Of a stretch of 44,039 nucleotides of DNA, positions 27,832-36,020 are shown one piece after another (positions within the stretch are counted from its first letter, which is position 1; every line of letters starts with the position of its first letter). The position numbers were made by a program, and so were the translations under genes. Location: NCBI GenBank assembly GCA_016215155.1, contig JACRLQ010000004.1, positions 1-44,039 on the forward strand. Reading direction: 5' to 3'. The notes beneath the pieces are model-generated. The model did not search any database. It was not told where the DNA came from and worked only from the letters and a program-made list of their open reading frames with translations. Source of the DNA: Nitrospirota bacterium (GTDB lineage: Bacteria > Nitrospirota > Thermodesulfovibrionia > Thermodesulfovibrionales > UBA6898).

Positions 27832-28037
27832 ACTATGACGTTAGGGTTAAGTACCTGCCCTGTAGGTGATATATGAAAGAGTTGATCCGGCAAATTAGAT
27901 CTTACGGGAGCCAGCGTATTCTGCTGGTGTGCATGCTGCCCATGTGGCAGAAGCCTGAAGGCAGTCTTATGGCACCCACCTATAACACAATAGGCGGATC
28001 TGATTTTTCATGTACACGACAGGGCGGGATCTAATTA
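27832..28037 (+). ncRNA. ssrS: Probable 6S RNA
   Basis: A rod-like structure can be drawn by hand. The closing stem CCTGCCCTGT (27854-27863) pairs with ACAGGGCGGG (28019-28028). Continuing inward, GTG...ATGAAA pairs with TTTCAT...CAC, and GATCCG (27884-27889) pairs with CGGATC (27995-28000). A large central bubble follows, then a terminal arm (GGTG with CACC) bearing CCAGC/GCTGG, CTGCC/GGCAG and GCCT/AGGC hairpins. Length (about 200 nt) and a long closing stem with a bubble fit 6S RNA, which mimics an open promoter and binds sigma-70 RNA polymerase. It lies directly upstream of rarA, as 6S genes do in several phyla (in Bacillus subtilis bsrA lies near yrvN/rarA). A covariance-model match has not been run. 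Confidence 0.72.
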
Positions 28038-31887: not shown

Positions 31888-32226
31888 TTACTTGTCAATA
31901 TTCCGGCAGAGTTCGTGCCTGACAAAAACAGGGGCCATATTCTCCCGGACCCTCACCATCACGGCTTTGCCGGCTAATTCCGCGGGGAAGCCTTCGGGAA
32001 GACTCAGCACTACGTCATACCCCCTCTCACGCATCATCCCGGCGAATTCCTCAGGCGTGGCCGGGACACTCGGGAGGTTCTCCCGCTTTGCAAGCAGTTC
32101 GACCCTGACACAACCATCTTCCCTTGACATAAGGGACCATTCAGGCTCCCCGCCATTGGCCGGCAGCGCCATAAAACCAAGAAGCAGGATCAAACACAAA
32201 CCGTAGAGCATCGCATTCCCTCTCAT
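31888..32226 (-). CDS. Small secreted protein of unknown function
   Basis: A 112-residue protein with a clear signal peptide (hydrophobic about 6-22, then ALPANGGEPEW). The mature part has two cysteines (DGC and ELC) that could form a disulfide, and is otherwise hydrophilic (YDVVLSLPEGFPAELAGKAVMVRVRENMAPVFVRHEL). No family is recognised. Two bases separate it from the VapC stop, so it may be cotranscribed with the toxin-antitoxin pair. Confidence 0.6.
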   Translation of the reverse strand: MRGNAMLYGLCLILLLGFMALPANGGEPEWSLMSREDGCVRVELLAKRENLPSVPATPEEFAGMMRERGYDVVLSLPEGFPAELAGKAVMVRVRENMAPVFVRHELCRNIDK

Positions 32227-32228
32227 TC

Positions 32229-32615
32229 TCAGACCGCCATGATCAACCCGTTATAGCCTGTCAGAAGGACGTCATGGGTAATGAACCTCATGGGTTCGCT
32301 GATTGCCTGGGCAATCAGGATGCGGTCAAACGGGTCTGCATGGATTGGCGGAAGAGACTCCAGATACGCGGCATGCTCAGCCGAGACGGGAAGCAGCCGA
32401 TATCCCGCTTCCTTAAAATATCCAAGCGCCTCATTGCCGGAAACCGGCATATTGCCGCGACCCAGGCTGTGCTTGACGGATATCTCCCAGATCGAGGCCG
32501 CGCTGACGGTAATCTCGTTATCAGCCGACATAATCAGGGCGAGAGCCGATTGCGGCAGTTTAGGATCGTCGGTTATTGCCCACAGGGCTATATGAGTATC
32601 GAGAAGAAGCTTCAC
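32229..32615 (-). CDS. PIN-domain ribonuclease toxin (VapC-like)
   Basis: A 128-residue PIN-domain nuclease. The acidic catalytic set is complete: D6 (LLDTHIALW), E44 (SIWEISVK), D94 and D97 (HADPFDRILIAQA), plus D115 (FITHDVLL). The GTG start overlaps the antitoxin stop (GTGA), the usual coupling for such modules. VapC toxins cleave specific RNAs and are held in check by the partner protein. It belongs to the PIN subgroup that pairs with Phd/YefM antitoxins. Confidence 0.92.
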   Translation of the reverse strand: MKLLLDTHIALWAITDDPKLPQSALALIMSADNEITVSAASIWEISVKHSLGRGNMPVSGNEALGYFKEAGYRLLPVSAEHAAYLESLPPIHADPFDRILIAQAISEPMRFITHDVLLTGYNGLIMAV

Positions 32616-32857
32616 TCATGTCCCCCGGTGAAGAGCTTATGAATGGCATCGTTGTCCGTATCGATCGAATCGGGAACGCGGAATTTACCCTTTGCGACCC
32701 CTATTCGCTTATCTATGGGAAAGGTGCTTAACGCTACAAGTCGGGCTATGGGCTTGCCGTTGCGGGCGATTATGACCTCCTGCTCGCGGCCGCTTTCGAT
32801 TGATTCGAGCAGCTTTGAAAGATTTGTTTTGGCCTCGAATATGTTCACTGACGGCAT
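32612..32857 (-). CDS. Phd/YefM-type antitoxin
   Basis: An 81-residue protein. The N-terminal NIFEAKTNLSKLLESIESG...VIIARNGKPIARLVAL is the DNA-binding fold of Phd/YefM antitoxins. The charged C-terminal tail (about 55-81) should wrap the toxin. A very strong ribosome site (AAGGAGGTG) precedes the ATG, which fits a need for more antitoxin than toxin. Confidence 0.92.
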   Translation of the reverse strand: MPSVNIFEAKTNLSKLLESIESGREQEVIIARNGKPIARLVALSTFPIDKRIGVAKGKFRVPDSIDTDNDAIHKLFTGGHE

Positions 32858-32913: not shown

Positions 32914-33885
32914 CTATGAATCCAGATCAGGAAATTGCTCCCTAATCTCGGCCTCAAAAACCTCCGCAATCTTCATAAATCCAGCCGACGACGGATGGAT
33001 CTCGTTTGCCCACCAGGATGGAGTCGGCTGCAAGGTGTTCTGCGTCGGCACATAGAATACCCGTCCCGGGTTTGAAGCAGCCAGACTCTTCAGGATAGAG
33101 GCAAATTGGGTGAGTATCTCTTTTACAACTTCGAACTGGGCTGCTTCGTCTTCGATGCCCCTGAGCTCGAGAGAAGGCTTCAACCATGGGCCGACAAAAC
33201 AAACCCCTTTCCCCGTGGCCATCGGAAAATCGTACCCGTGCAGAAATATTTTCGTCTCAGGACTGAGGGCCTTTGTGATGGCGATGAGATCACGGTAGCC
33301 CGCCTCAATGATCGCCAAAACAGCGGCCAGCCTGGATCTGTTTATCAGCGCCCCCGGTGAGCCGCCACTTTTATAGTCGTTAAGCCAGAGACAGAACTGG
33401 TCGCCGACAAGGTCATTGCCGCCCCCTGAAAACAGGAGCGCATCGAACCGGAGTTCGTCGTCCGAGAGCCGGGTCTGCAATTCCTCGCGCTGGGAAACTC
33501 CCATGATCTGACGCACCTCGTCGCCATGATGGGCCATATTGCAGATGGGAACGTTGAGCAAATTCTCAAGGTGGTCGATAACTCCACCCTTGTCCATCGG
33601 GTACTCGAACCAGGAGTCCCCCTCGGCGAGAATTTTTATCCTCGCCGATTCAAAAAAAGCGGTCGCCCTGGCGCTCGTTCGTGCGGCCCTCTGCCTGGGC
33701 GGCATAATCTTACTGATGTAGTTCTCATAGCGCTCTTTGCGGTCTTTTTTAACGCGCTGCGCGAGGATATCACGCCTTTCGGCAACCGCTTCAACCGTGA
33801 TCCTCTTTATAACGCGCGCGCTCCTCGTCTTCACGACATCTGACTTTGATTTCCCTGTCTCAATAGCGTCCTTTTTCCGCCTCAT
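32914..33885 (-). CDS. SGNH/GDSL-family hydrolase-like protein
   Basis: A 323-residue protein. The second ATG (33885) is preferred: the AGGGGG ribosome site abuts the first ATG (33891) but is six bases from the second. A very basic N-terminal region (about 1-75), without signal peptide, precedes an SGNH core: S91 (AEGDSWFEYP), block II Gly (HHGDEV), N157 in SGGGNDLVGDQ, and H297 in NEIHPSSAGF. The DxxH Asp of block V is replaced by Asn (N294). SGNH enzymes are esterases, lipases or acyl-transferring enzymes. The substrate is unknown. It stands last in a leftward trio with the membrane protein and the NlpC/P60-like protein. Confidence 0.8.
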   Translation of the reverse strand: MRRKKDAIETGKSKSDVVKTRSARVIKRITVEAVAERRDILAQRVKKDRKERYENYISKIMPPRQRAARTSARATAFFESARIKILAEGDSWFEYPMDKGGVIDHLENLLNVPICNMAHHGDEVRQIMGVSQREELQTRLSDDELRFDALLFSGGGNDLVGDQFCLWLNDYKSGGSPGALINRSRLAAVLAIIEAGYRDLIAITKALSPETKIFLHGYDFPMATGKGVCFVGPWLKPSLELRGIEDEAAQFEVVKEILTQFASILKSLAASNPGRVFYVPTQNTLQPTPSWWANEIHPSSAGFMKIAEVFEAEIREQFPDLDS

Positions 33886-33955
33886 TTTCATCCCCCTATC
33901 GCTTTCAGTTAATAATCGAGATGTCTCTTATCAAATATCTTTACAGGCGGACTCA

Positions 33956-35065
33956 TCACGCCTCCTGCCCGACTTTGCCCCCGACCTGCGAATCAGGTAA
34001 TGTCTTATCGGCCTTCTTCTGCCCCCTGACAGGACTGTTTGAAAATGCAAGGACGAATTTATCCATAGCCGTAAAGAAAAGTTCCACGCTGTAGCCGGCG
34101 AGGAAGGCCAGGGCAAATGGTGAAAGAGACGAATTGACCAACCCATCGGGCTTGTAAAACCAGCCGATCGCCAGCCCCGCAAGGGTGCCTAACTGCATTC
34201 TCAGACCGAACCCGGTGTTTGCAGTTGGGACATAGGTAACGTTCCTTATCCTGACAGACAACGTACGAAGCACATATGCAGCGGAGCCCAACAGGCCGTA
34301 TAGTAACGGTAATATGTTGGCCTGTATCATCTGCAACCCCAAATTAGCAATGCCCACTGATGCGAGATTACTTATATGAGCGTCCCTCCTCCACTCGCCG
34401 CCCTTCTCATGTTTATCTGCCTGTTGGTCATCATTATTAGAGGTCAACAGGGGCGACCAATATTTCTTGAACACTTTCAGGTCGGCTTCATAAATAGTCC
34501 TCTCACGCCGGAGTTGCTCAAGAACTTTTTTTGTCTCGGCGCTTTGCTGTTCCTGGGGCTTCCCGATCTCCCCTCTCAGTGCTGAAACGGCCGTCCAGCT
34601 GGTATCGAGTTCTTTTCTGTGTTTTTCGATCCTGTCGAGCATGTTGGCCCCGCTTGACCAATAAATCTGGACAACTATCAGCGCGAGCAGTATTGTGGAT
34701 GTGCAGAGTCCGTATCTCATCGCATACCATCGTGCCGCGGAGGCCTTAAATTTTCCGCCGGTTAGCCTCTGAACAATTTTGAACGGAAGACTGTGCGTTG
34801 GAGGATCGATAGCCGCCTTTATGCTTGCCACGGTTACCGGGGCTGCGCCTTTGGCTGCAGCATTATATGCGGCCCAAAAATCGGTCTCGTCCTGCGGGGC
34901 CCAGTTCCCGGCGGCAAACAGGTGCTTTGCCTTTACTATCGCAGAGGCAGTTTTTGTGTCGAACTCCAGGCCCTGCCGCGAGATGTAGTCCAGCAGAAGT
35001 TCAGCCTCCCTGACGGCCTCAAACAGCAGAATGTGATCGTCTACCTCTGTCCCGTTTTTTCCCAT
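33956..35065 (-). CDS. Unrecognised membrane protein with coiled coil
   Basis: A 369-residue protein I do not recognise. Residues about 1-110 are soluble and helical (HILLFEAVREAELLLDYISRQG). A membrane helix lies at about 118-136 (CTSTILLALIVVQIYW), followed by a charged coiled coil (about 140-205). Then come two or three hydrophobic segments (about 240-275, 298-312 and 324-345). The C-terminal tail is basic and hydrophilic. GGGAGGG precedes the ATG. The layout, a membrane-anchored coiled coil with a soluble N-terminal domain, would suit a signalling or scaffolding role beside the two predicted hydrolases, but no function is assigned. Confidence 0.65.
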   Translation of the reverse strand: MGKNGTEVDDHILLFEAVREAELLLDYISRQGLEFDTKTASAIVKAKHLFAAGNWAPQDETDFWAAYNAAAKGAAPVTVASIKAAIDPPTHSLPFKIVQRLTGGKFKASAARWYAMRYGLCTSTILLALIVVQIYWSSGANMLDRIEKHRKELDTSWTAVSALRGEIGKPQEQQSAETKKVLEQLRRERTIYEADLKVFKKYWSPLLTSNNDDQQADKHEKGGEWRRDAHISNLASVGIANLGLQMIQANILPLLYGLLGSAAYVLRTLSVRIRNVTYVPTANTGFGLRMQLGTLAGLAIGWFYKPDGLVNSSLSPFALAFLAGYSVELFFTAMDKFVLAFSNSPVRGQKKADKTLPDSQVGGKVGQEA

Positions 35066-35154
35066 GAGTCCCTCCCCTTTACGACTTTTGTTTCTTCACC
35101 CAAGGATGAAGGCAAATTGGATTGACAGTTTTCACAGGCAATCCTTTAGTGTCG

Positions 35155-35649
35155 TCAATCCATACCAGCATACCACGCATATATTGTGTTTTCCCTGGCC
35201 TTGAAAACGGCTGGGCCTGTTTCCTGGATTGCGTCACCTGTTCTTTTATAGTTACCGCTTGAGCAATGAATGACCTTTATGACCTCCCCTTCCCCGGACG
35301 TCTCTGTAACTATTCCTACATGACCAACTGATTTGGGGCTTGAACCCGGATAGACAATAAGGCATCCGGGGATAGGTGTTTCCAATGTTTCAAAGATTCC
35401 AACCGGAGTATTCGCATCGTATACAATTGCATCCGTATTTATCCAGCCGCCATTAAATTTCTGATACACGGGATTGTCCGTCATACGGCTTAGACCGAGG
35501 CACCAGGCTGCATACCCGCTGCAATCACATTCGTTTACATCATTGGCCGGGCTTATGGTTAAGGCCTTGAGGCCCCCTTTGCCCAGCCTGTACTTGATCC
35601 CTTTTCCTAAAACTGATCTTGCCCTTGAAATCACCTCAGCAACCTCCAT
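35155..35649 (-). CDS. NlpC/P60-like cysteine hydrolase
   Basis: A 164-residue single-domain protein of the NlpC/P60 papain-like superfamily. The catalytic triad is present: C43 (CDCSGYAAWCLG), H110 (SVGHVGIV) and a third polar residue, H128 (VIKVIHCSSG). Family members cut peptidoglycan stem peptides or amide bonds. No signal peptide or cell-wall-binding domain is present, so the product starts in the cytoplasm unless exported otherwise. A strong AGGAGG lies six bases from the ATG. It heads the trio with the membrane protein and SGNH hydrolase. Confidence 0.85.
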   Translation of the reverse strand: MEVAEVISRARSVLGKGIKYRLGKGGLKALTISPANDVNECDCSGYAAWCLGLSRMTDNPVYQKFNGGWINTDAIVYDANTPVGIFETLETPIPGCLIVYPGSSPKSVGHVGIVTETSGEGEVIKVIHCSSGNYKRTGDAIQETGPAVFKARENTIYAWYAGMD

Positions 35650-36020
35650 AAATCCTCCTGTGTATCGTCATTGAGCTTTCTTAATCAGAACGTGCCCACT
35701 TTCTACCGCAGCCTGGAAGCTTATATATTAAGGTGTTATATACTGAGGACCGGAAAAAGTGAAGGCAGAAGGCTCTGGTTGCCGACGCGCGAAGCAGAAG
35801 CTTCAGCCCCGAAGGGATAAAATGACAGTTACGGTCCGATAAATAATTATTGACTGGATTGTTCTTGTAACTGGAAAAGGACTGGTCCCCGGACGTCCCC
35901 ATAAGCGATCCCCCCGCTGTGTGATCCCATATTATATATACCGACACCCATAGTGAAAATAAAATACCAGAAGCGTTTTTTATATGTCAATGATTATTTT
36001 AGTGCCGTTACCATCCCCGT
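35650..36020. other. 371-base gene-free region
   Basis: No credible gene. It holds short GC palindromes (GGACGTCC at 35891-35898 inside GTCCCCGGACGTCCCC), which may be remnants of an interspersed palindrome. The promoter of the NlpC-led block should lie near 35660-35720; I see no strong boxes. Confidence 0.4.

Follow-up and report, generated by a model that had tools for sequence, protein, structure and literature searches.

A possible envelope self-destruction cassette of a CHAP hydrolase, an uncharacterised four-helix membrane protein and an SGNH hydrolase in a Nitrospirota genome

Among the described systems, the nearest frame for the locus considered here is provided by the conflict systems of the Aravind type, featuring YEATS, caspase and trypsin parts. 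Another comparison is offered by the holin–endolysin lysis cassettes of phages and by holin-dependent release in bacteria; in these cassettes, a small membrane protein consisting mostly of transmembrane (TM) helices recurrently adjoins a peptidoglycan hydrolase lacking an export signal (hereinafter, signal-less), the folds of the enzyme being interchangeable. The locus in question comprises genes for a CHAP hydrolase, an uncharacterised protein with four TM helices (4-TM protein) and an SGNH hydrolase; it resides in a 44,039-nucleotide stretch of a Nitrospirota bacterium genome (contig JACRLQ010000004.1), referred to below as the window.

The three genes are collinear on the minus strand (Table 1) and tightly spaced, with 89 bases between the CHAP and 4-TM genes and 64 bases between the 4-TM and SGNH genes, and their ribosome sites (AGGAGG, GGGGAGGG and GGGGG) are strong, so the layout proposed by a sequence-only reading of this DNA stands. 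The same is true of the housekeeping genes on its flanks and of the neighbouring toxin–antitoxin pair, whose two adjacent genes follow the SGNH gene directly and both score above the Pfam cut-off. The promoter-like sites upstream of the CHAP gene are of a kind occurring at a frequency barely above the chance expectation. The window also harbors a 6S RNA and, between ymdB and the PIN gene, a small protein with a likely signal peptide (Table 1).

Table 1. Features of the window (window coordinates) and loci of the 4-TM and SGNH families outside it (L numbers)
Feature	Location	Strand	Basis or remark
CHAP (NlpC/P60-like clan) gene, 164 aa	35155..35649	minus	Pfam match, C43/H110 motifs
Uncharacterised 4-TM protein gene, 369 aa	33956..35065	minus	ORF, AlphaFold2 model
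SGNH/GDSL (GDSW subtype) hydrolase gene, 325 aa	32914..33891	minus	Pfam score near cut-off, motif blocks
Phd/YefM-type antitoxin gene	32612..32857	minus	PF02604; neighbour, cassette membership not established
PIN-domain toxin gene	32229..32615	minus	PF01850; neighbour, cassette membership not established
Promoter-like sites TTGACA-18-TATTTT and TTTTCA-17-TATAAT	35931..35990	minus	Consensus match alone, upstream of CHAP gene
6S RNA	27849-28034	plus	RF00013, 88 bits
112-aa protein, no Pfam family	31888-32226	minus
Stand-alone 4-TM genes, Sneathiella	L040, L048, L055, L058, L061, L062, L066, L068, L070
SGNH + Amidase_3 + M15 protein	L174, L175		Pfam; L174 SGNH part from phmmer
SGNH + Amidase_3 + M74 + S8 protein, 1716 aa	L184:4695-9842, Rhizobium sp. 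TH2 plasmid		Pfam
SGNH + trypsin + EEP nuclease protein	L180, L185		Pfam; L185 SGNH part from phmmer
SGNH + trypsin protein	L012		Pfam
SGNH + caspase protein	L013, Rhizobium		Pfam
SGNH neighbours GH19, amidase and murein endopeptidase	L012
SGNH neighbour GH46	L014

The product of the first gene matches the Pfam CHAP family (32.3 bits against a cut-off of 26, 1.4e-7), with the catalytic residues C43 in CDCSGY and H110 in GHVGIV. CHAP and NlpC/P60 belong to the same Pfam clan, that of papain-like cysteine hydrolases. The earlier assignment of this protein to NlpC/P60 was therefore nearly right: the DCSGY/GHVGIV pattern is NlpC/P60-like and the clan is shared, but the family matched is CHAP. Close relatives of this protein were not found; its matches from phages were limited to weak ones with tail proteins. 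Its single-sequence fold (pLDDT 32) was set aside.

The SGNH assignment of the third gene stands as well: its Lipase_GDSL_2 score (32.1 bits) falls slightly short of the cut-off (32.9), but all motif blocks are in place, i.e., GDSW at 91 (with S93), GGGND at 156 and EIHP at 297 (as NEIHP), and are kept in four relatives. Annotation or scoring places these and other relatives among the SGNH/GDSL proteins, one of them (at L175) reaching 42.3. The N-terminus of the protein is basic and helical. Hydropathy revealed no signal peptide in either hydrolase, in line with the sequence-only reading.

The protein encoded between them, described by that reading as an unrecognised membrane protein with a soluble N-terminal domain and a coiled coil, proved to be just that, according to family searches and an AlphaFold2 model. 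Searches of Pfam, PHROGs and PADLOC assigned it to no family, and no NCBIfam match came near the cut-off. The model (all-helical, pLDDT 85, built with 47 aligned sequences) features a soluble domain at residues ~1–100, TM1 at ~112–138, a coiled coil at ~139–243 and three C-terminal TM helices. The charge distribution across the family suggests that the N-terminus is inside, the coiled coil outside (periplasmic) and the C-terminus inside. Its structural neighbours (best Foldseek E 0.37; VIA Z up to 9.7) are within the chance range of helical bundles. The YLATT family (PF20303) was considered and rejected as its identity, since none of the 47 family members matched the Pfam model and the hhalign probability (0.4) equalled that of an unrelated control; the YLATT search across the phylum returned zero matches anywhere and hence provides no informative contrast. 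A phage origin was likewise rejected for the 4-TM and SGNH genes for want of phage relatives: none were found in phages or viral contigs for the former or in phages for the latter.

As a conserved system, the trio did not withstand comparison with other genomes. In 290–295 genomes of the phylum, no second locus with two of the three genes together was found; the 4-TM protein has one clear relative there (37%, in another family of the order) and three marginal matches, and the SGNH and CHAP proteins have six relatives and two marginal ones, respectively, in different genomes. SGNH relatives are not enriched where the 4-TM family is present (3/49 genomes against 7/290 in the phylum), no SGNH locus examined carries a 4-TM-family gene, and the one link between the two seen outside the window is on a Microvirga plasmid, 30 kb apart. 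The CHAP and SGNH hydrolases of the window were not found travelling with 4-TM homologues, a check that the sequence-only reading had proposed; the lack of co-occurrence elsewhere, which it had itself named as refuting, thus tells against the trio as a system.

In relatives, emrB comes immediately behind emrA or is separated from it by one or two genes; in the window genome, emrA (window 36021) is followed by the trio and emrB (82% identical) is on another contig (G000:C96:41339-42874). On the other side lies ymdB, with neighbours that also vary between relatives; therefore, the junction is rearranged. A search for repeats flanking the trio revealed none of note. Its codon adaptation, computed leave-one-out over the window genes, is low: the CHAP (0.64) and 4-TM (0.66) genes rank below all 23 other window genes tested (0.68–0.82), and the SGNH gene (0.69) ties for the second lowest. 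Recent acquisition of the trio is likely. It could even be that the three genes form no functional unit and are cargo landed at a gene-accumulating junction beside a toxin–antitoxin pair. The uniqueness of the trio, the displaced emrB and the low codon adaptation agree with this explanation, yet the tight same-strand spacing and the good ribosome sites do not, nor does the association of the 4-TM and SGNH families, each on its own, with peptidoglycan hydrolases; we regard it as unlikely.

These associations emerge from the distribution of the two families. The 4-TM protein of the window founds a family, lacking a Pfam entry, that is spread over many phyla: a single scan, covering 84,980 species genomes, yielded 79 loci, distributed among Proteobacteria, Nitrospirota, Nitrospina, Desulfobacterota, Bacteroidota, Spirochaetes and others. 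Its members recur in three settings, namely with a DUF2914-like partner, with signal-less peptidoglycan hydrolases, or standing alone. The second setting is encountered in four clades besides the window, in agreement with the earlier expectation that the 4-TM protein is associated with envelope-acting hydrolases: the enzyme is a GH19–DUF2272/CHAP fusion in Bradyrhizobium, a PG_binding-GH19 protein in Paraburkholderia and GH19 in Methylococcaceae, and Vibrio, Photobacterium and Marinomonas have an N-acetylmuramidase together with a lamin-tail protein. The CHAP protein of the window has no BLAST similarity to the Bradyrhizobium DUF2272 domain, so the clan alone is common to both. Within three genes of the 4-TM gene, 11 loci have GH19 and 5 have N-acetylmuramidase (16 together), as compared with just 2 genes of these types farther away in the same loci (~450 near vs 570 far ORFs). 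In a quick family tree with long branches, the hydrolase-bearing groups occupy separate parts, and the starred branches force at least three changes of the GH19 label. None of the 14 GH19 and muramidase partners tested has a signal peptide.

In Methylococcaceae (L056, L076, L077, L085), two tandem 4-TM paralogues stand next to the signal-less GH19 gene. The neighbours at single 4-TM loci include caspase, S8, phosphoesterase, Tle1-like and alpha/beta hydrolase genes. A Zn-dependent phospholipase C domain is encountered near both the 4-TM and SGNH families (above the cut-off at L016, weak in L106). A match to the Tli3 immunity protein at two loci was set aside, with a beta-propeller cross-match at L051.

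In 21 loci (e.g., L017, L020, L032, L038), a secreted DUF2914-like protein is encoded just upstream (−1) of the 4-TM gene; this pairing spans Nitrospirota, Gammaproteobacteria, Desulfobacterota and Bacteroidota and makes the secreted protein a candidate periplasmic partner of the family. No such partner was found elsewhere in the genome of the window by a search run without a positive control. In Sneathiella (Table 1), the 4-TM gene stands alone amid conserved housekeeping genes (tgt, queA and gyrA nearby, by sequence). The orphan copies and the DUF2914-like pairing are ill-suited to a dedicated lysis gate and speak for a role in envelope maintenance, where the 4-TM protein would serve as a general scaffold or stress sensor of the inner membrane and the hydrolases would be accessory enzymes of remodelling or turnover, not killers. 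However, the partner hydrolases bear no export signals, so periplasmic peptidoglycan would be out of their reach in normal growth, and the SGNH relatives are parts of caspase-containing and multi-hydrolase proteins. On balance, envelope maintenance seems a somewhat unlikely explanation of the trio.

The SGNH family, signal-less in all except one or two of the 25 proteins checked, is recurrently fused to, or encoded beside, peptidoglycan hydrolases and death-type proteases (Table 1). Its closest member (64% identical, from a sister genus) is encoded behind clostripain C11 and transglutaminase genes, with no 4-TM-family gene. Judging from these fusions and neighbours, the family combines domains of the lipase type with wall-cutting and protease ones. 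The signal-less polyproteins of L184, L174, L175 and L180, found on rhizobial and rhodobacterial plasmids, look like many-headed self-destruct or effector proteins. In Methylococcaceae (L171:3528-7055), an SGNH gene lies ~30 bases downstream of a TPR-CHAT (caspase-like) gene, and a PIN toxin is encoded nearby. Two rhizobial SGNH loci (L011:6767-7468 and L013:7669-8439) have in common an unnamed protein with a LKxW..YY..KKGLPI.FY-like C-terminus. A distant SGNH relative (28%) is present on the Pseudomonas aeruginosa plasmid pPALA50 (L181) and three more plasmids of this species, where it adjoins a LemA family gene and genes for hypothetical proteins.

Peptidoglycan hydrolases and lipases without export signals are also typical cargo of the type VI secretion system (T6SS), and single 4-TM relatives are situated near a Tle1-like phospholipase gene (L023) and a VgrG-like gene (L022, named by eye from the sequence). 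Accordingly, the hydrolases might be exported effectors in an inter-bacterial conflict, with the 4-TM protein as their immunity or delivery partner. Still, neither the T6SS sheath (VipB) nor a phage-type tail sheath was found in the genome of the window, the positive controls of both searches having matched, and T6SS or contractile delivery was rejected on this ground; VgrG and Tle1 are limited to one locus each, and the orphan 4-TM genes are at odds with an immunity role. We consider this conflict role very improbable.

Both families point to destruction of the envelope from inside, by enzymes unable to leave the cell unaided. Thus, we tentatively interpret the trio, with a probability of roughly 0.38, as a cassette for envelope self-destruction that was assembled recently and is probably transcribed as one unit. 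The two hydrolases, having no export signals, would be held in the cytoplasm, the CHAP enzyme for peptidoglycan and the SGNH enzyme for lipid or acyl esters. The 4-TM protein, with its cytoplasmic N-terminal domain and periplasmic coiled coil, would sense or respond to envelope damage and either open the membrane or deliver the hydrolases to it, with lysis or death of the cell as the outcome; such self-killing may serve abortive infection or the release of cell content. The gating by the 4-TM protein, the SGNH target, the trigger and the purpose of self-killing are what we infer from the families involved. A sensor, anchor or gate is the most economical reading of the 4-TM protein, its step from the membrane to hydrolase access being presumed. 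Against the self-destruct cassette stand the uniqueness of the trio, the size of the 4-TM protein (much larger than a holin), the CHAP protein without close relatives, the absence of phage relatives of the 4-TM protein and the absence of known defence genes alongside: the PADLOC 2.0.0 defence protein models matched none of the six proteins searched (the trio and its neighbours). Overall, the trio probably represents an uncommon combination of self-destruct-type parts that recur elsewhere, and not a fixed system.

A broader proposition, which we hold to be doubtful, is that the 4-TM family is a new membrane gate or sensor repeatedly paired with any available signal-less peptidoglycan hydrolase for non-phage, envelope-triggered self-lysis, to which the window would add an SGNH lipase of a caspase-linked family. 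The general 4-TM family is a more interesting lead than the trio. If the interpretation given here holds, two widespread and apparently undescribed associations are exposed: one links an un-named 4-TM family to wall hydrolases that are signal-less and interchangeable, and the other places a signal-less SGNH lipase family within multi-domain proteins with caspase, trypsin and peptidoglycan amidase; through both of them, bacterial self-lysis outside prophages becomes directly testable.

In the recurrent adjacency of a membrane protein and a signal-less peptidoglycan hydrolase of interchangeable fold, the 4-TM loci resemble the holin–endolysin cassettes. Unlike a holin, the 4-TM protein has 369 residues, including a domain in the cytoplasm and a coiled coil of ~100 residues in the periplasm; it lacks phage context or relatives, the flanks in the window being housekeeping genes, its family is often orphan or paired with the DUF2914-like partner, and no spanin genes were recognised. 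YLATT (YEATS-like-associating three TM) is comparable as a multi-TM protein next to the caspase–SGNH fusion of Rhizobium (L013), but it resembles the 4-TM protein of the window neither in sequence nor in profile. In the open literature searched, we found no description of the 4-TM/wall-hydrolase or SGNH/protease–amidase association, so both are provisionally regarded as undescribed. In the text of Kaur et al. 2020 (PMC7159879), SGNH, GDSL, lipase, amidase and chitinase are absent and NlpC appears once. The window differs from the caspase/trypsin multi-effector conflict systems of that paper in having no peptidase, NTPase or STAND component, whereas the SGNH family resembles them in two respects: its members are built into, or encoded next to, caspase, CHAT, clostripain, trypsin and S8 proteins, and one protein carries several hydrolytic domains.
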